This document shows, in pieces, positions 25,498 to 34,121 of a stretch of 52,207 nt of DNA. Both the position numbers and the translations under genes were made by a program. This DNA is from Chlorobiota bacterium (lineage in GTDB: Bacteria; Bacteroidota; Bacteroidia; Bacteroidales; F082), in assembly GCA_013151215.1 (NCBI GenBank), contig JAADIS010000107.1:1-52207 (forward strand), written 5' to 3'. The notes under the pieces are model-generated. The model was not told the DNA's origin, ran no database searches, and was given only the letters and a program-made list of their open reading frames with translations. Numbering within the stretch: the stretch's first letter is position 1; each line of letters begins with the position of its first letter.

Positions 25498-26535
25498 GTG
25501 GGTCAAAACCAGATTGAGAAACCTTTTTTTTCAGGTATTCTATTAAAGGTACTTATAAAGTATTATAAGCAGTTAAGCCTCATTGCGGTGGCTGCCATCG
25601 CATTGTCCGCTATTTTTTCATCTTCGTATTTCATAACACCGCTATTTCAATCAACGGTAATCCTATATCCTACGGCCAGCAATTCAATCTCCAAAGTGTT
25701 GCTGAGCGAAAATTTCAACAACAGCAAGGACATTCTGGAATTCGGTGAAGACGAGCAAACCGAACAATTGCTGCAGGTGCTCAACTCGAATAAAATACGG
25801 GACAGGATAATTGTCAAGTACAAGCTAATGGAACATTACGGCATAAAGAGCGGCAGCAAATTCAAAATGACGAATTTGTATAATGAGTATGAAGAAAAAT
25901 TCAAGTTCAGGCGCACCGAATATATGGCGGTAAAAATCACCGTCCTCGACAAGGACCCGCAGTTTGCCGCCGACATGGCGAATAATGTTGCCGAGCTTCT
26001 GGATTCGACAATAAACTCCATGCAGAAAGAAATTGCCATTCGCGCATTTACAATTGTCCAAGAGGAGTATTTAAAACTAAAAAGCCAGATAAAGGTAAAA
26101 GAAGATTCAATGACGGTATTGCGCGGTTTCGGCGTTCACGACTACGAAAGCCAATCGGAGATGTTCAACCGCCAATTGGCAATTGAGATGGCAAGGGGCA
26201 ACCAGCCAGGCGTTTCAAGGCTTGAGCAAAAGCTTACGATTCTTGCAAAATACGGAGGCCCTTATGTCTCATTGCGAGATGCCCTTGAGCATGACAAGAA
26301 GAAGCTCAGCGAGCTGATGTCGAAATATGAAGAAGCAAAAGTGGACGCCACCGAGAGCCTTCCGCATAAATTCATAGTCAGCAGCGCATATAAAGCCGAG
26401 AAAAAAACATATCCGATAAGATGGCTCATCGTTTTAATCGCAACGGTTGCAAGTGTTCTTGTTGCAATGCTCATATTAGCCTTTATCGAGGTTTTTTCGG
26501 GCAACATTGAAATAAACATTAAAAAAAAAAGTTAA
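25498..26535 (+). CDS. Wzz-like polysaccharide chain-length determinant, copy 1
   Basis: 345 aa inner-membrane protein with a helix near residues 28-50 (SLIAVAAIALSAIFSSSYFITP), a large periplasmic helical domain (60-300) and a second helix near 305-330 (WLIVLIATVASVLVAMLILAF). FITPLFQSTVILYP is the typical Wzz entry motif. Such proteins set the length of O-antigen or exopolysaccharide chains. Start GTG. The gene ends in a run of ten adenines (26521-26530); a -1 slip there would join it to copy 2 in one reading frame. Copy 2 has the same layout, so this is a tandem paralogue pair. Confidence 0.85.
   Translation: MGQNQIEKPFFSGILLKVLIKYYKQLSLIAVAAIALSAIFSSSYFITPLFQSTVILYPTASNSISKVLLSENFNNSKDILEFGEDEQTEQLLQVLNSNKIRDRIIVKYKLMEHYGIKSGSKFKMTNLYNEYEEKFKFRRTEYMAVKITVLDKDPQFAADMANNVAELLDSTINSMQKEIAIRAFTIVQEEYLKLKSQIKVKEDSMTVLRGFGVHDYESQSEMFNRQLAIEMARGNQPGVSRLEQKLTILAKYGGPYVSLRDALEHDKKKLSELMSKYEEAKVDATESLPHKFIVSSAYKAEKKTYPIRWLIVLIATVASVLVAMLILAFIEVFSGNIEINIKKKS
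26521..26531 (+). other. A10-G slippery run at the end of wzz copy 1
   Basis: Ten adenines followed by G: the annotated frame reads AAA AAA AAA AGT TAA and stops. One base back, the frame reads AAA AAA AAG TTA and stays open from 26523 to the stop of wzz copy 2 at 27653. A AAA AAG is the classic slippery heptamer (dnaX). Translational slip, transcriptional slip or an indel error would all give a fused product. Confidence 0.6.
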
Positions 26536-26705
26536 TCATTGACATACCGTCCTTTTACAACAGGACTAAAAAAACTGATATAAGCAGTAAGACCAAGGAT
26601 AGTAAACAACAAACCGATGATAACAAAGGCGATGAACCTTTAATAAAAGAAATTGAGAAGAAAGAAGTACGAAATGACTTTGATGTTGAAATTAACGATA
26701 TAGAA

Positions 26706-27653
26706 ATGGCCAAGTTTTTTAATAGTTCCGAATTATTGAGTTTATTGGATAAGTGGAAAATCCATTTACTTGTTATTGTAGTTGCCGCCGCCGCTTTAGG
26801 AGCAATATTCTCAGGGCCTGCGTTTATAACTCCGCTATATAAATCCCAAGCAGTCTTATACCCGGCTAACGTTGAAGCGTATTCCGAAGAAAGCGAAACG
26901 GAGCAGATGCTTCAAGTATTTGGATCACAGGATATTAAAGATAGCGTTATCAATAAATTCAAATTAGGCGGACACTACGGGATAGACAAAGGCTATAAAC
27001 ACTATAAAACTATACTTTATTATGAGTATAGCGAGAAAATATCCATCAACAAAACACCTTACGAAGCAGTCTCGATAGAAGTCCTCGACAAGAGCCCTGA
27101 TACCGCGGCAATGATAGTGAATTCACTGATCCATTATTACGACAAGAAGATCCAAAGGCTTCATAAATCAAAATATGTAGAGGTGGCCGATATGTATAAA
27201 ATCCAATTGAGGAGAAAGGAAGCCACCATCGACTCCTTAAAAAACATATTAAAAGTTCTTGGCAAGGAGCATGGTATTATCGAATACGATTATCAAACAC
27301 AAGAGATCATGCGCGGCCTTTTGGGAACCGTTGACGGTGATGGATCCAACATAAACAAAAAGGAGGTAGAGCGTTTAAAGAAAGGCATGGAGAAATATAG
27401 CGGGCAGCTGGTCGAGATTATTGAGATGATCCAGGCAGAAGCACGTACCTATGTGGAGGTCAAGCTTGATTATGAAATGGCATTGAGGTTCTTAAGTTCC
27501 GAAATGACATATAGCAACGTGGTATCTTACCCCTATGCTTCCGACAAAAAAGAGTACCCGGTTAGGTGGATAATCGTTGCCATTGCCGCCATTGCCGCAT
27601 TTATGTTCTCTACTCTGGTAATCATGTTCATCGAGAACAAAAAGAAATCATAA
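26706..27653 (+). CDS. Wzz-like polysaccharide chain-length determinant, copy 2
   Basis: 315 aa from the first in-frame ATG. Membrane helix near residues 20-43 (LLVIVVAAAALGAIFSGPAF), then FITPLYKSQAVLYPANVEAY, a helical periplasmic domain with SEETEQMLQVF-like segments matching copy 1 (DEQTEQLLQVLNS), and a C-terminal helix WIIVAIAAIAAFMFSTLVIMF. The open frame extends 61 codons upstream without ATG, back to the A10 run inside copy 1; that stretch (IIDIPSFYNRTKKTDISSK...) is charged and would be a cytoplasmic linker. It may therefore be made both alone and as a fusion. The O-antigen ligase starts right after the stop. Confidence 0.83.
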   Translation: MAKFFNSSELLSLLDKWKIHLLVIVVAAAALGAIFSGPAFITPLYKSQAVLYPANVEAYSEESETEQMLQVFGSQDIKDSVINKFKLGGHYGIDKGYKHYKTILYYEYSEKISINKTPYEAVSIEVLDKSPDTAAMIVNSLIHYYDKKIQRLHKSKYVEVADMYKIQLRRKEATIDSLKNILKVLGKEHGIIEYDYQTQEIMRGLLGTVDGDGSNINKKEVERLKKGMEKYSGQLVEIIEMIQAEARTYVEVKLDYEMALRFLSSEMTYSNVVSYPYASDKKEYPVRWIIVAIAAIAAFMFSTLVIMFIENKKKS

Positions 27654-29102
27654 TTGTTTGTGGGCGAAAAACTTAAGATAGGTTGGGTTTATGGGTTAAC
27701 CTCATTGTTTCTGTTGGCTAATCTGTATTTGGTAGTACAAAAAGACATGTATTGGCTTTTTGTGCTTCCGGTAGCCTTAATAGTGATGTACTATTATCTG
27801 ACAGCCTACGACAAAGTTTTACTGTTTATCACTTTCTTGACCCCCTTGGCCGTAAACATCAACGATCTGGAAATGGGAATGGGGGTATCCCTGCCAACCG
27901 AGCCTTTGATGTTCGGTGTCCTGTTGATTTTTCTAATAAACGTAATATATCAGAACAATTACGACAAACGAATATCGGCGCATCCCATCTCGTATATTAT
28001 TTATTTGAATTTGTTTTGGATACTACTTACGACTTTTACAAGCGAGATGCCCGTAGTATCTATTAAATTCTTTATTTCAAGACTGTGGTTCGTTGTCCCT
28101 TTCTTTTTTGTTGCAGCCATGTTCTTCAGGAAAATGGAAAACATCAGTCGCTTCTTGTGGCTTTACCTGGCAGGCTTGGTGATCGTAATTATTTATACTA
28201 CCATTATACATGCACAATATGGTTTCGACGAGGAAACAGGTCATTGGGTAATGTCGCCCTTTTATAACGACCATACTGCCTATGGGGCGGCCTTGGCGAT
28301 GTTCTTCCCGGTCTGCATAGGCCTGATTTTCTTTCCAGGCCTCAATAAGTTGGCACGGACGGCTGCCGTATTCACTTTGTTATTTCTTGTCATAGCAATT
28401 ATTTTATCATACAGCCGGGCAGCATGGTTAAGCATTTTAGCATCTGCCGCTTTGTTCCTGCTAATTGTTTTCCGAATCAGGATTTATTGGGTATTGAGTT
28501 TTTTAATAGTTGTTATAGGATTGTTTTTTGCGTTTCAGCATCAGATAATCGATAAGCTTGAAAAGAACAAACAGGATTCGTCGGCCAATTTTGCCGAACA
28601 TATCAAGTCGATAACAAACATATCGTCCGATGCGTCGAACCTGGAAAGAATAAACAGGTGGCAAGCGGCAGTGCGGCTTTATGACGAGCGGCCTGTTTTC
28701 GGATGGGGGCCGGGAACATACCAATTTGTTTATGCCCCTTACCAACGATCTAAAGAAAAAACAATAATAAGCACTAATCTCGGTGATAAGGGAAATGCCC
28801 ACAGCGAGTATCTGGGCCCACTTGCCGAAGAGGGCTTAGCAGGAATGCTAATTGTCATTATTTTGTTCGCAAGTATTTTATATTCAGGCATAAAGGTATA
28901 TGAAAAGGGCAATCTTAAGGTTAAGTTCTTAAGCATGATGGCTACCATAGGTTTGGCTACATATATGGCCCACGGGGTTTTGAACAACTTTTTAAATACC
29001 GATAAGCTTTCGGTGCCTTTTTGGGGGTTTACCGCCATTATCGTCGCCCTCGACATATATCACACACAAAACCCGGCTAAAGCTGGCCCGACGGAGCAGT
29101 AA
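27654..29102 (+). CDS. O-antigen ligase/polymerase family membrane protein (Wzy_C domain)
   Basis: 482 aa with about twelve membrane helices and a large periplasmic loop. The loop region (LERINRWQAAVRLYDERPVFGWGPGTYQFVY ... GNAHSEYLGPLAEEGLAGMLI) is the Wzy_C/WaaL signature, with the functionally important His in NAHSEYL. Either joins polysaccharide to lipid A core or polymerises repeat units; ligase and polymerase cannot be separated by sequence. A TTG start touches the wzz stop; a GTG two codons later (27660) is equally plausible. Together with the wzz pair it forms a surface polysaccharide module. It converges on lpxD2 with only 21 bp between and no terminator. Confidence 0.85.
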   Translation: MFVGEKLKIGWVYGLTSLFLLANLYLVVQKDMYWLFVLPVALIVMYYYLTAYDKVLLFITFLTPLAVNINDLEMGMGVSLPTEPLMFGVLLIFLINVIYQNNYDKRISAHPISYIIYLNLFWILLTTFTSEMPVVSIKFFISRLWFVVPFFFVAAMFFRKMENISRFLWLYLAGLVIVIIYTTIIHAQYGFDEETGHWVMSPFYNDHTAYGAALAMFFPVCIGLIFFPGLNKLARTAAVFTLLFLVIAIILSYSRAAWLSILASAALFLLIVFRIRIYWVLSFLIVVIGLFFAFQHQIIDKLEKNKQDSSANFAEHIKSITNISSDASNLERINRWQAAVRLYDERPVFGWGPGTYQFVYAPYQRSKEKTIISTNLGDKGNAHSEYLGPLAEEGLAGMLIVIILFASILYSGIKVYEKGNLKVKFLSMMATIGLATYMAHGVLNNFLNTDKLSVPFWGFTAIIVALDIYHTQNPAKAGPTEQ

Positions 29103-29123: not shown

Positions 29124-30059
29124 TTATTTCTTTTTGAGCAGCTTTAAAAGTTCGGGCAGTTGCTTTAGGGCTATCATGTTCCGCCAATATTTCTTCACTT
29201 CCATTGCGGGCGAGCCCATATATGTTATTCCGCCCTCAACGGATTTGTCGATTGCCGATGTTGCCAATATTTGAGCGCCTTTACCAATAACAATATCTTT
29301 ATTTATCGCCACCCTAGCCCAAATTACCACATCATCCTCAATTTTGGTAACACCTGCTATTGCCGCAAAAGCACCTATCAAACAGTTTTTGCCGATAACA
29401 GTATCATGCCCCACCTGGCAATGGTTGTCGAATTTCGTTCCGTTCCCGATAGTTGTATCTGCGGTTACACCTTTATCAATGCAGCAGTTGGCCCCAATTT
29501 CAACCTCATCCTCTATAACAACCCTGCCGCCGGAATGGAACTTCGAGAACTTGCCGTCTTTTTTCTGAAAATAATATGCATCAGCGCCTATTACGCTTCC
29601 TGAATGGATGATACAGCGATTGCCGATGATACTATTATCATAAATGCTCACATTGGCATGAATGATACAATCATCGCCTATCACAACATTGTTTCCAATA
29701 AAGGCAGCTGCTTGAACAACTGTGTTCTTGCCTAAAACGGCAGAATCGCTAATAAGGACACCGGATTTCCGAAACCCCCTGAATTTATTGATCAAGAGGT
29801 TAAAGGCGGAAAAAGGGCTTTCATGAAAGATGAGCGATTTTCCTTCCGGTGCCTCAAGTTCCTTGTTGATAATAATCACCGACGCTTCGGAATCAAGTAC
29901 TTTATTGTAATATTTTGGATGATCCACAAAAGTCAGGTCGCCTTGACGTACGACATGAAGCTCGTTTAAACCAATAGCAGTATTTTCGGCTCCGCACAAA
30001 GCCCGGCCTCCAATAATTTCAGCAATTTCACTTACCGAAAGTTTCTTGGGAAAATCCAT
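29124..30059 (-). CDS. LpxD paralogue, UDP-3-O-acylglucosamine N-acyltransferase-like
   Basis: 311 aa left-handed beta-helix acyltransferase with an LpxD-type N-terminal domain (residues 1-100) and hexapeptide repeats (about 105-280). The catalytic base region DNHCQVGHDTVIG keeps His218. The second conserved LpxD His (GGQVGIVGH in the other copy) is replaced: this protein has WARVAINKDIVIG. It is shorter than copy 1 (342 aa). Placement after efp in an lpxA-efp-lpxD2 order is, as I recall, common in Bacteroidota. It may have another nucleotide-sugar or acyl preference. It starts 3 nt after efp. Confidence 0.85.
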   Translation of the reverse strand: MDFPKKLSVSEIAEIIGGRALCGAENTAIGLNELHVVRQGDLTFVDHPKYYNKVLDSEASVIIINKELEAPEGKSLIFHESPFSAFNLLINKFRGFRKSGVLISDSAVLGKNTVVQAAAFIGNNVVIGDDCIIHANVSIYDNSIIGNRCIIHSGSVIGADAYYFQKKDGKFSKFHSGGRVVIEDEVEIGANCCIDKGVTADTTIGNGTKFDNHCQVGHDTVIGKNCLIGAFAAIAGVTKIEDDVVIWARVAINKDIVIGKGAQILATSAIDKSVEGGITYMGSPAMEVKKYWRNMIALKQLPELLKLLKKK

Positions 30060-31635: not shown

Positions 31636-33033
31636 TCAATCCTTGTTCTTCACGATCTGAGCGGTTAGTTCGCCGTCCATGACAAGTTTATCGCCAACAA
31701 AGGCCTTACCCCTCATGATGCATATTCCGCGTTTTATGGGTGCGATAAGCTCAATACTGAAAATCAGGGTGTCGCCCGGAACAACTTTACCCCTAAAGCG
31801 CACATCGTTGATTTTCAGGAAATAGGTTGAATACAACTCGGGGCTTGACACCTGGTTTAAAACAAATATTCCGCCTACCTGTGCCATTGCCTCAACCTGA
31901 AGCACGCCCGGCATGATTGGTTCACCGGGGAAATGCCCCACGAAGAAAGGTTCGTTCATCGTAACGCTTTTCATCCCGATTATATGATTGTCGCTCATTT
32001 CCAGCACTTTGTCAACCAGCAAAAACGGCGGACGGTGAGGAAGCATTTTCTGTATCTGAACAACGTCGAATCGTGGTTTTGCATAAATATCAAAAGGTGG
32101 TTCTTTTAACATGGCTTCTTTTTTTATTAAATGTTGATTAATTATTCTTGCAAATTCCGTATTTGATTGATGGCCGGGGCGTTTAGCCGTTATCTTCCCC
32201 TTAATGGGTTTCCCCAAAAGGGCCAGGTCGCCAATCATGTCCAGCAGCTTGTGGCGTGCCGGCTCATTGGCATAGTGCAGCTCAAGGTTGTTTAGGATAC
32301 CTTCTTCCTTAACCTTGACGCTGGGCTTGTTAAATGCCTTCGCAAGCCTGTCGAGCTCCTCCTGTGGTACTTTTCTGTTAACAAACACTATAGCGCTTGC
32401 CAGATCACCGCCTTTGATAAGGTTATTGCTTAAAAGGAACTCCAGTTCGTGCAGGAAAACAAAAGTCCTGCACTTCGATATTTCCTTCTCAAACCTGGAG
32501 ATATCCGATAAGCTGGCATGCTGGGCGCCCAACACCCTGCTCTCGTAATCTATATCAACTTCAAGTTCAAAGGTATCCGAAGGCTCTATCCTGATTTCTA
32601 TTTTACTATCGGGAACTTTATATTCAATGGTTTCATTTATAACGATGAAATCCCTATCTTTGTCAAGATCAACTACTTCCGCCTCTTTTATTGCGTTCAG
32701 GAAAAACCTGGACGAACCGTCAAGAATTGGTATTTCCTCCATATCAAGATCGATAAGTGCATTATCGACTCCCAGGCCCCTGAAGGCGGCTAGTACATGC
32801 TCGATGGTAAACACATTGGCTCCGTTCTCGCCAATTGTTGTACCGCGTGCCGTTCCAACTACATTTTCGATAGTTGCTGAGATAATTGGTTTTTTTTCGA
32901 GATCGGATCTCCTGAACTTTAAACCATGATCGGCCGGTGCCGGATAAAATGTCATAGTTCCCTTCTGACCTGTGTGCAATCCATTACCGCTTATAGATAT
33001 CGACTTTCCAATAGTCTTCTGTTTTTCTGCCAT
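31636..33033 (-). CDS. lpxC/fabZ: Bifunctional LpxC-FabZ: UDP-3-O-acyl-GlcNAc deacetylase / 3-hydroxyacyl-ACP dehydratase
   Basis: About 465 aa. Residues 1-310 are LpxC: SGNGLHTGQKG, the zinc-binding VFTIEHVLAAFRGLG, and HKLLDMIGDLALLG. Residues 325-465 are FabZ: MLPHRPPFLLVDKV and the catalytic HFPGEPIMPGVLQVEAMAQ. The fusion links lipid A synthesis with fatty acid elongation and is characteristic of Bacteroidota. The ATG at 33033 (MAEKQKTIGKSISISG) was chosen over one ten codons upstream: the family starts near KTIGKSI and a -7 box at 33078-33085 lies close. Confidence 0.96.
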   Translation of the reverse strand: MAEKQKTIGKSISISGNGLHTGQKGTMTFYPAPADHGLKFRRSDLEKKPIISATIENVVGTARGTTIGENGANVFTIEHVLAAFRGLGVDNALIDLDMEEIPILDGSSRFFLNAIKEAEVVDLDKDRDFIVINETIEYKVPDSKIEIRIEPSDTFELEVDIDYESRVLGAQHASLSDISRFEKEISKCRTFVFLHELEFLLSNNLIKGGDLASAIVFVNRKVPQEELDRLAKAFNKPSVKVKEEGILNNLELHYANEPARHKLLDMIGDLALLGKPIKGKITAKRPGHQSNTEFARIINQHLIKKEAMLKEPPFDIYAKPRFDVVQIQKMLPHRPPFLLVDKVLEMSDNHIIGMKSVTMNEPFFVGHFPGEPIMPGVLQVEAMAQVGGIFVLNQVSSPELYSTYFLKINDVRFRGKVVPGDTLIFSIELIAPIKRGICIMRGKAFVGDKLVMDGELTAQIVKNKD

Positions 33034-33077
33034 AAAAATACGGGTATAACTCACACCCCTCAATTAAAAAATTTGCG

Positions 33078-33092: not shown

Positions 33093-34121
33093 CTATTTAC
33101 TCTTGGAATTTCTTTCCAATTCGTTGACCCTCTTGACCAAACTGTCGAGCCGCCTAAAATGGACATACGACCTTTGATAGTTGCGGATGCCAAAGGCCGG
33201 AGAGCCTTCCACTATGGAATTTTCCTCTGTTATGCTTTTCCCCACTCCCGATTGCGCGGCTATCATTACGCCGTCGGCAATTACAAGATGGCCAACTATG
33301 CCCACCTGGCCGCCTATCATACAATTCTTTCCGATCTTGGTAGAACCGGATATCCCTGTTTGCGCAGCAATAACAGTATTTTCGCCTATTTCGACATTAT
33401 GGGCAATTTGGATCAGGTTATCAATTTTCACTCCTTTTCGTATGATCGTAGAACCCATGGTGGCCCTGTCGATGGTCGTATTTGCCCCTATTTCAACCCG
33501 GTCTTCCAGGATGACGTTACCTATTTGAGGTATCTTTTTGTAATCCTTTGAATCCTGCGGGGCAAAACCAAAACCGTCGGCGCCCACGATGGCCCCCGAA
33601 TGGATGGTGCAGTGGGCCCCAATTATGCAATCTTCATAAACCTTTACTCCTGAGTTAATTATGCAATCTGTTCCCAGGCTGACATTGTTGGAGATGGCCG
33701 CATTAGAAAAAATTTGAGTATTGTCGCCAACAACAACGTTTTCGCCTATAACAACAAAAGCGTCGATAAAAACATTCTTGCCCAACTTGGCGGACTCGGC
33801 GATTACGGCCATCGATGAAATGCCTTGCGGGCTTGGCCGCGATTTTTGATATAATTCCAAGACAGCAGCAAATGCGGCATAGGCGTTTCTCACCCGTATC
33901 AGGGTTGTCGAATATTTCTTTTCAGCAACAAAACCGTTGTTGACAATAACCACCGACGCCTTGGTGGAATATAAATAGTGCGTGTATTTAGGATTGGACA
34001 GAAAACATAAAGCACCTTTTCCACCTTCTTCAATTTTGGCCAAGGTACTAACCTCAGCCATCTTGTCGCCTTCCACCTTTCCGTTGAGGGCCTGTGCTAT
34101 CTGCTCTGCCGTAAACTTCAC
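33093..34121 (-). CDS. lpxD: UDP-3-O-(3-hydroxyacyl)glucosamine N-acyltransferase LpxD
   Basis: 342 aa, the full-length LpxD. N-terminal uridine-binding domain (1-100), beta-helix hexapeptides (102-300), C-terminal coiled helix ([19 protein letters not shown]). Both conserved His are present: His241 in [13 protein letters not shown] and His278 in [23 protein letters not shown] is the acyl-binding signature. This is the likely working enzyme of the pathway, unlike the shorter copy at 29124-30059. Confidence 0.96.

Follow-up and report, generated by a model that had tools for sequence, protein, structure and literature searches.

A run of ten adenines (A10) closes the first of two tandem wzz genes in the window, the 52,207-base stretch of DNA analysed here, which is a whole contig of an assembly of 3.72 Mb in 154 contigs. 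The locus raises the question of whether this run is a site of programmed slippage that joins the two genes into one protein. The run occupies positions 26521–26530 of the forward strand, with a T before it at 26520 and GTTAA after it, and copy 1 ends there as ATT AAA AAA AAA AGT TAA, with its stop codon at 26533–26535. In the −1 frame, a TAA at 26520–26522 is followed by an open frame extending from 26523 to the stop codon of copy 2 at 27651–27653. The copy 1 frame and the open copy 2 frame therefore overlap at 26523–26535 (forward strand), and the linker at 26536–26705 (forward strand), a charged and poorly conserved sequence that is open in the copy 2 frame, would be read solely in a joined product. 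Direct reading of the sequence thus confirmed two statements of the initial annotation, that an A10 run ends copy 1 and that the −1 frame stays open over 26523–27653, with 61 codons ahead of the ATG of copy 2 at 26706.

The A10 run is the sole run of nine or more adenines (A9+) on either strand of the window; about nine nine-base matches were expected from shuffled sequences and two overlapping matches, both within A10, were observed. Genome-wide, 17 exact A10 runs were found on both strands. None of the other 16 was preceded by at least 100 open codons in one frame and followed by at least 100 in another, within the 1.4–2.5 kb around each run.

The tandem wzz genes and their neighbours

Copy 1 (25498–26535, forward strand) encodes the short product, a polysaccharide co-polymerase of 345 aa from a putative GTG start at 25498. 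The copy 2 domain (26706–27653, forward strand) comprises 315 aa from the ATG at 26706 and would form the second half of the joined product. Scores against the Pfam Wzz family (PF02706) were 21.6 bits for copy 1 and 20.4 bits for copy 2, both under the curated cut-off of 25.5. Foldseek detected fold matches of copy 2 to Wzc, KpsE and WzzE with E values of 9e-9 to 6e-7 (model pLDDT 78.4), and of copy 1 to Wzc and WzzE with E values of about 1e-4, from a low-confidence model (pLDDT 65.7). The arrangement of the PCP fold, a periplasmic domain between two terminal membrane helices, was evident for copy 2 and weaker for copy 1. A sequence search of the PDB with the copy 1 profile returned nothing credible, its two matches having E values of 0.22 and 0.42. 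On the basis of the sub-threshold Pfam Wzz scores and the structure matches, which are weaker for copy 1, both copies were taken as polysaccharide co-polymerases, and the tandem pair probably helps to set the chain length of a surface sugar.

An O-antigen ligase/polymerase-like gene (Wzy_C; 27654–29102, forward strand; PF04932, 5e-25) begins at a putative TTG start directly after copy 2 and is a probable operon partner of the wzz pair. This adjacency is a circumstantial sign that chain length may be controlled together with Wzy. Gene order was compared in 16 named relatives of the window, all of them metagenome assemblies labelled as Bacteroidetes, Bacteroidales, Lentimicrobiaceae or (two) Chlorobiota bacterium. 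The ligase gene lay 3′ of copy 2 in 16 of 16 loci and copy 1 lay upstream of copy 2 in all 13 loci that reached far enough. Downstream, lpxD-efp-lpxA-lpxC was present in 12 of the 16, with efp, lpxA and lpxC in three more and none of these genes within the L042 stretch. In the window, an lpxC-like ORF of 475 aa (31636–33063, minus) runs on into a FabZ-looking stretch; it may be an LpxC-FabZ fusion, a kind of gene common in Bacteroidota. Two hexapeptide-repeat ORFs (29124–30059 and 33093–34121, minus), presumably LpxD-like, flank the lpxA/lpxC group.

Conservation of the run, the frame relation and the linker

The junction was sought in 61 relatives (51 with a match), 173 genomes of the window's family (159) and 393 genomes of the order (241), mostly multi-contig assemblies, together with fetched stretches, and copies 1 and 2 were paired by profiles from alignments A1 and A2. 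From 251 loci, 12 duplicates, 38 loci without a copy 1–copy 2 pair (single copy or contig edge) and seven further duplicates were removed, leaving 194 pairs, of which the window's family contributed 119 and 29 other families 75. These loci are mostly the better-scoring part of the 159 family and 241 order matches, and the fractions given below are not unbiased frequencies. The search for the A run covered the interval from −5 to +95 nt relative to the end of the copy 1 domain; L227, with A9 at +107 and copy 2 in +1, and the fused loci L179, L191 and L234, with A8–A10 further along the linker, were counted as having no motif.

A run of A9–A12 was found in 96 of the 194 distinct tandem pairs, from 20 families (54 in the window's family), and in 69 of the 96 it was A10. 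It is situated 23–57 nt past the end of the copy 1 domain, just after the second membrane helix of copy 1. Seventy of these 96 pairs are split with copy 2 in the −1 frame, 25 are fused in frame and one is split in +1. The initial annotation had made conservation of the run among relatives a test of its proposal, and both the run and the open −1 frame are kept in the 70 split loci, in all of which the run lies inside the two-frame overlap. A further 46 pairs, all from genus g14 and all split in +1, carry a different motif (T6CG, described below). The remaining 52 pairs, with neither motif, comprise 17 that are separate in frame 0, 21 split in +1 (19 with an overlap), three split in −1 with no overlap and 11 fused.

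The −1 overlap arrangement was therefore found in 70 of 71 run-bearing split pairs and in 0 of 41 motif-free split pairs (Fisher P=6e-30). The pairs are related by descent, 54 of the 96 belonging to one family, so the association was retested on phylogenetically independent pairs from a FastTree tree; ten of 11 agreed with an association between the run and the −1 frame and none opposed it (P=0.002). The run begins in all three codon phases, and all 27 loci with a run length of 9, 11 or 12 retain a −1 or 0 frame relation. A run in a +1 overlap was seen at two loci, L223 and L227. Outside the order, 29 loci, again mostly the better-scoring ones among 107 class genomes with a match, gave 23 tandem pairs; none of these had an A9+ run and none was fused, and four had −1 overlaps (4–118 nt) with no run.

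Runs of A9+ occurred once in 341,012 nt of domain bodies, compared with 98 times in the 13,580 nt just after copy 1. Within the domains, lysine is encoded by AAA in 64 % of cases and no KKK was encoded entirely by AAA (0 of 17). These counts indicate that selection acts on the nucleotides at the run. The linker of the 70 split −1 loci contained no stop in 2,271 codons read in the copy 2 frame (log10 P −91), which answers a second test set by the initial annotation, while the other two frames had stops in 56 and 64 of the 70. Among 13 groups of near relatives, pS in the linker was 0.52 and pN 0.29, compared with domain pN values of 0.09 and 0.12, and linker differences at the three codon positions numbered 540, 437 and 674. 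As judged from these substitutions, the split −1 linker is coding and weakly constrained.

The proposed slip and its alternatives

Conservation of the run, the fixed frame relation, the open linker and constraint at the level of nucleotides are established for the sequences compared, and the first three support the proposal of the initial annotation that a slip joins two Wzz domains into one protein. Very probably, the A10 run is a programmed slip site that would give copy 1 alone together with a copy 1–copy 2 double protein, probably by the action of RNA polymerase. Read as written, the run would yield copy 1 alone, 345 aa with a single periplasmic domain flanked by two membrane helices. Part of the time, slippage by RNA polymerase would add one A to the mRNA, or the ribosome would slip back by one base, and translation would then cross the linker to give a double protein of about 718 aa (by codon count) with four membrane helices. 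The ratio of single to double chains would shape the co-polymerase oligomer that acts with the neighbouring Wzy/ligase-like protein, and mixed single and double forms may thereby tune it. From the comparison of genomes we infer that slippage occurs, its level and that RNA polymerase is its agent.

The fused relatives bear on what the run does. It is kept in 25 in-frame fused loci from 13 genera or families; 11 of these, from four genera with 67–93 % protein identity, all have A10 or A11, and at least 12 switches between the fused and split states with the run retained were counted on the tree. One fused relative (G002) also has A10 and differs from the window outside the run. Since fused relatives keep the run, the default product there would be the double protein and a slip would make the single one, giving the same two products with their roles exchanged, as in the different styles of dnaX. 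A slip in these genes would produce copy 1 extended by a short tail, whose median length is 5 codons in both frames and whose maximum is 33. Stops fall within 7 codons after the run in the −1 frame of 18 of the 25 loci (null 0.56) and in the +1 frame of 17 of the 25 (null 0.36), which is mildly closer than chance. Both the single and the double product seem to be wanted where the run is kept. The usual place lacks a run in a further 11 fused loci (g6, four; f73, five; f51, one; f112, one), and together with the mild stop proximity this indicates that the short form is not universal; given also the many plainly separate pairs, neither product set is universal. In the fused loci L179, L191 and L234 (families f73 and f51), A9–A10 runs are present further down the linker, and these genes might slip there. 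The ATG of copy 2 is kept in 67 of 71 split loci, in 22 of 25 fused loci with the run and in 11 of 11 without it (33 of 36 fused loci overall). As this codon, at 26706 in the window, is kept even in fused genes, copy 2 alone may arise by internal initiation as a third product.

Slippage at A runs is already known, from dnaX and from IS elements. In Thermus thermophilus, transcriptional slippage on A9 gives long and short products of dnaX from a long ORF that is unbroken in the genome (PMC1088944; PMC5009743). The wzz locus resembles it in having an A9–A10 run on the sense strand and predicted long and short products, and fused wzz relatives share the unbroken long ORF; it differs in being another gene, in that the window genes are split and a slip would make the long form, and in occurring in both styles. 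A split dnaX has also been described in which two ORFs are joined at A10 (PMC3711429), and in Escherichia coli dnaX undergoes ribosomal −1 frameshifting on A_AAA_AAG (PMC5009743). As in this dnaX set, the same protein pair would be reached by differing arrangements in different bacteria, but wzz would join two complete paralogous membrane domains, and no downstream stimulatory structure was found. The longer product of Shigella mxiE results from transcriptional slippage on a run of U (PMC1088944); there, too, a slip joins two overlapping ORFs, but on a U run and in the gene of a transcription activator.

A second A10 run, present in some of the genomes compared here, served as a control for conservation of the wzz run. 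It lies in frame in a lysine-rich linker at a CoaC/CoaB domain boundary, in a gene that is presumably coaBC-like (L284; G000:C50, minus strand, contig bases 1681–1690), with stops within 8 codons of the run start in both other frames. An A10–A11 run was present in 4 of 4 loci examined in the genus (G000, G001, G002 and G004) and across all 30 loci six had A9+ within 45 nt; the G003 gene matches as two pieces near the run site. The coaBC run is a candidate for a second dnaX-like slippage site.

The same two products would arise if the ribosome shifted by −1 on an A_AAA_AAA heptamer inside the run, the mechanism of E. coli dnaX, and this is a serious though lesser possibility. Of the 71 split loci with a run, 70 show the −1 direction, and by the rule of Antonov 2013, under which a single direction among orthologues denotes a ribosomal event, this ratio of 70 : 1 favours the ribosome. 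All 70 runs are long enough to hold A_AAA_AAA, a heptamer of the X_XXY_YYZ type, in phase, and G follows the run directly in 60 of 96 pairs. However, the run is never shorter than 9 (range 9–12) in any of the three phases, although two of the phases could accommodate a ribosomal heptamer with only 7 or 8 A, and within the order a shorter run is absent from all split −1 overlap loci. Neither was a stem-loop stimulator found in the 60 nt after the run (mean z −0.33, with 8 of 96 below −2), and the +1 arrangements at L223 and L227 do not fit a −1 shift. These three observations favour RNA polymerase. A conserved A run of about nine or more with two products defined by the frames is what transcriptional slippage would leave, the run length roughly equals that of the RNA–DNA hybrid (9–10 bp), and A9 is reported to slip well, chiefly by adding As (slippage literature). 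With slippage on A runs biased to insertion, the same −1 arrangement is also expected from RNA polymerase. The slip may well be transcriptional, then, rather than ribosomal: granted a slipping site, its agent is somewhat more likely than not RNA polymerase, and less likely the ribosome.

It is improbable that slippage merely rescues an accidental frameshift, with the fusion as the sole product needed and the run hiding the break. The 11 fusions with no run at the usual place speak for this explanation, but the 25 in-frame fusions keep a run for which they would have no need, 11 of them in four genera whose proteins are 67–93 % identical.

An arrangement of two ordinary proteins, with copy 2 made from its own ATG and an incidental A run and open frame, is quite unlikely. 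The ATG is kept in most loci and plainly separate pairs do exist, 17 of the 52 motif-free pairs lying in frame 0 with no overlap. This arrangement leaves unexplained A9+ runs in 20 families, the fixed −1 relation and 2,271 open linker codons. The gap from the copy 1 stop to the copy 2 ATG is also long for re-initiation: its median is 113 nt in the split loci with a run (n=69) and 31 nt in the separate pairs with no motif (n=37), although it is 29 nt or less in 16 of the 69.

Surface-polysaccharide genes are often phase-variable and homopolymers mutate, so a change of run length in the DNA could switch the fusion on and off. Changing lengths would scatter the frames, yet 70 of 71 split loci are in −1, loci with 9, 11 or 12 A hold to −1 or 0, and A10 is common to the split and fused states; phase variation was rejected as the main explanation and is highly unlikely. 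A true fusion gene whose homopolymer was misassembled or misread, named as the main alternative by the initial annotation, was also rejected and has a negligible chance of being correct: homopolymers are error-prone and the window and its relatives are draft assemblies, the named ones metagenomic, but a separately assembled near relative (G003, JAJRQZ010000181.1), whose two proteins are 98 % and 97 % identical, shares both the A10 and the frames, in keeping with the −1 relation in 70 of 71 loci. As the run is conserved in 20 families, the window junction is a real observation, and the apparent frameshift at the wzz locus is probably real biology and not error.

A second candidate site in genus g14 and the meaning of the pair

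Genus g14 has no A9+ run in any of its 59 pairs. In its 50 long-linker pairs copy 2 is always in +1; the other nine pairs have short linkers. A candidate slip site, TTTTTTCGN, of the form C_TTT_TTT_CGN with copy 2 in +1, was found in 46 of the 50 (for example L113, L096 and L136), in each case just after the second helix of copy 1, 27 nt past the domain end (46 of 46). L093, L094, L117 and L133 do not have the exact T6CG and were counted apart. A Phe-Phe pair is present in 49 of the 50 and is encoded by TTT TTT in every case (49 of 49); the next codon is CGN in 46, and the codon before the pair has C as its last base in 48. Within the g14 domains, TTT accounts for 19 % of the codons for Phe, 2 of 57 Phe-Phe pairs are encoded by TTT TTT, and Phe-Arg is TTC_CGN 68 times against TTT_CGN six times; by these counts, TTT TTT CGN at the candidate site runs against codon preference. 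The T6CG class was first defined within g14 and later checked on all 194 pairs; 46 of the 59 g14 pairs had the motif in the codon phase of the candidate site, compared with none of the other 135. Outside g14, TTTTTTCG was seen near the junction in 8 of 135 pairs, all in another codon phase. The window has its own TTTTTTCG at 26492–26499, in a codon phase other than that of g14, and this was taken as coincidence.

The +1 linker of g14 is free of stops over 876 codons (log10 P −20), and the other frames have stops in 47 and 28 of the 50 pairs. On codon counts alone, as a test of slow decoding, CGG and CGA occupy the A-site position in 14 of 46 sites compared with 86 of 883 CGN codons in the domains. 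A hairpin downstream of the T6 is possible: the candidate (GGCCGA..TCGGTC, 8 nt after T6) has a covariation score of 0.132 against 0.063 when shuffled and 76.8 % of its cells pair, with no structure predicted by RNAalifold, and downstream folding gave z < −2 at 22 of 46 sites. The P-site UUU would slip to UUC, giving the +1 shift, and the g14 device is most likely ribosomal. The PA-X protein of influenza A is made by a +1 frameshift at UCC UUU CGU (PMC8310308). The g14 site, C UUU UUU CGN, shares with it an in-frame UUU followed by CGN and a second ORF in +1; it differs in belonging to a bacterial gene, in its two UUU codons and possible downstream hairpin, and in being known from its sequence.

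On balance, we lean towards the view that a pair of single and double co-polymerases is maintained across the order by interchangeable devices: polymerase slippage at A10 that would add the second domain, the same slippage in a fusion that would remove it, and in g14 a ribosomal +1 shift at C_UUU_UUU_CGN, at almost the same position.

Porphyromonas belongs to Bacteroidales. WzzP of Porphyromonas gingivalis, for which Wzz activity is experimental, has two membrane helices and acts on O-antigen chain length (PMC3684754); unlike the wzz pair it is a single protein of 560 aa with a long cytoplasmic tail, and the available part of that paper does not mention a tandem gene or slip site. Among the matches listed from the open full texts of PMC, none described recoding in wzz, and the GeneTack cluster list may hold an unnamed case. 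In the available portions of the two dnaX papers, PMC3711429 contains no word starting ‘chain length’ or ‘polysaccharide’ and PMC5009743 does not contain ‘chain length’, ‘O-antigen’ or ‘lipopolysaccharide’.

If the proposed slip is correct, the co-polymerase ring, and through it chain length, would be set intrinsically by the proportion of single to double chains, and a cell-envelope gene pair would join the cases of conserved recoding. To our knowledge, few bacterial chromosomal genes show such recoding apart from dnaX, prfB and mobile elements. The relatives form a natural series, comprising split −1, fused with the run, fused with no run, split +1 and separate pairs. This series makes it testable which enzyme slips at A10 and why a co-polymerase would mix one-domain and two-domain chains, a mixture that bears on how Wzz rings set polysaccharide length.
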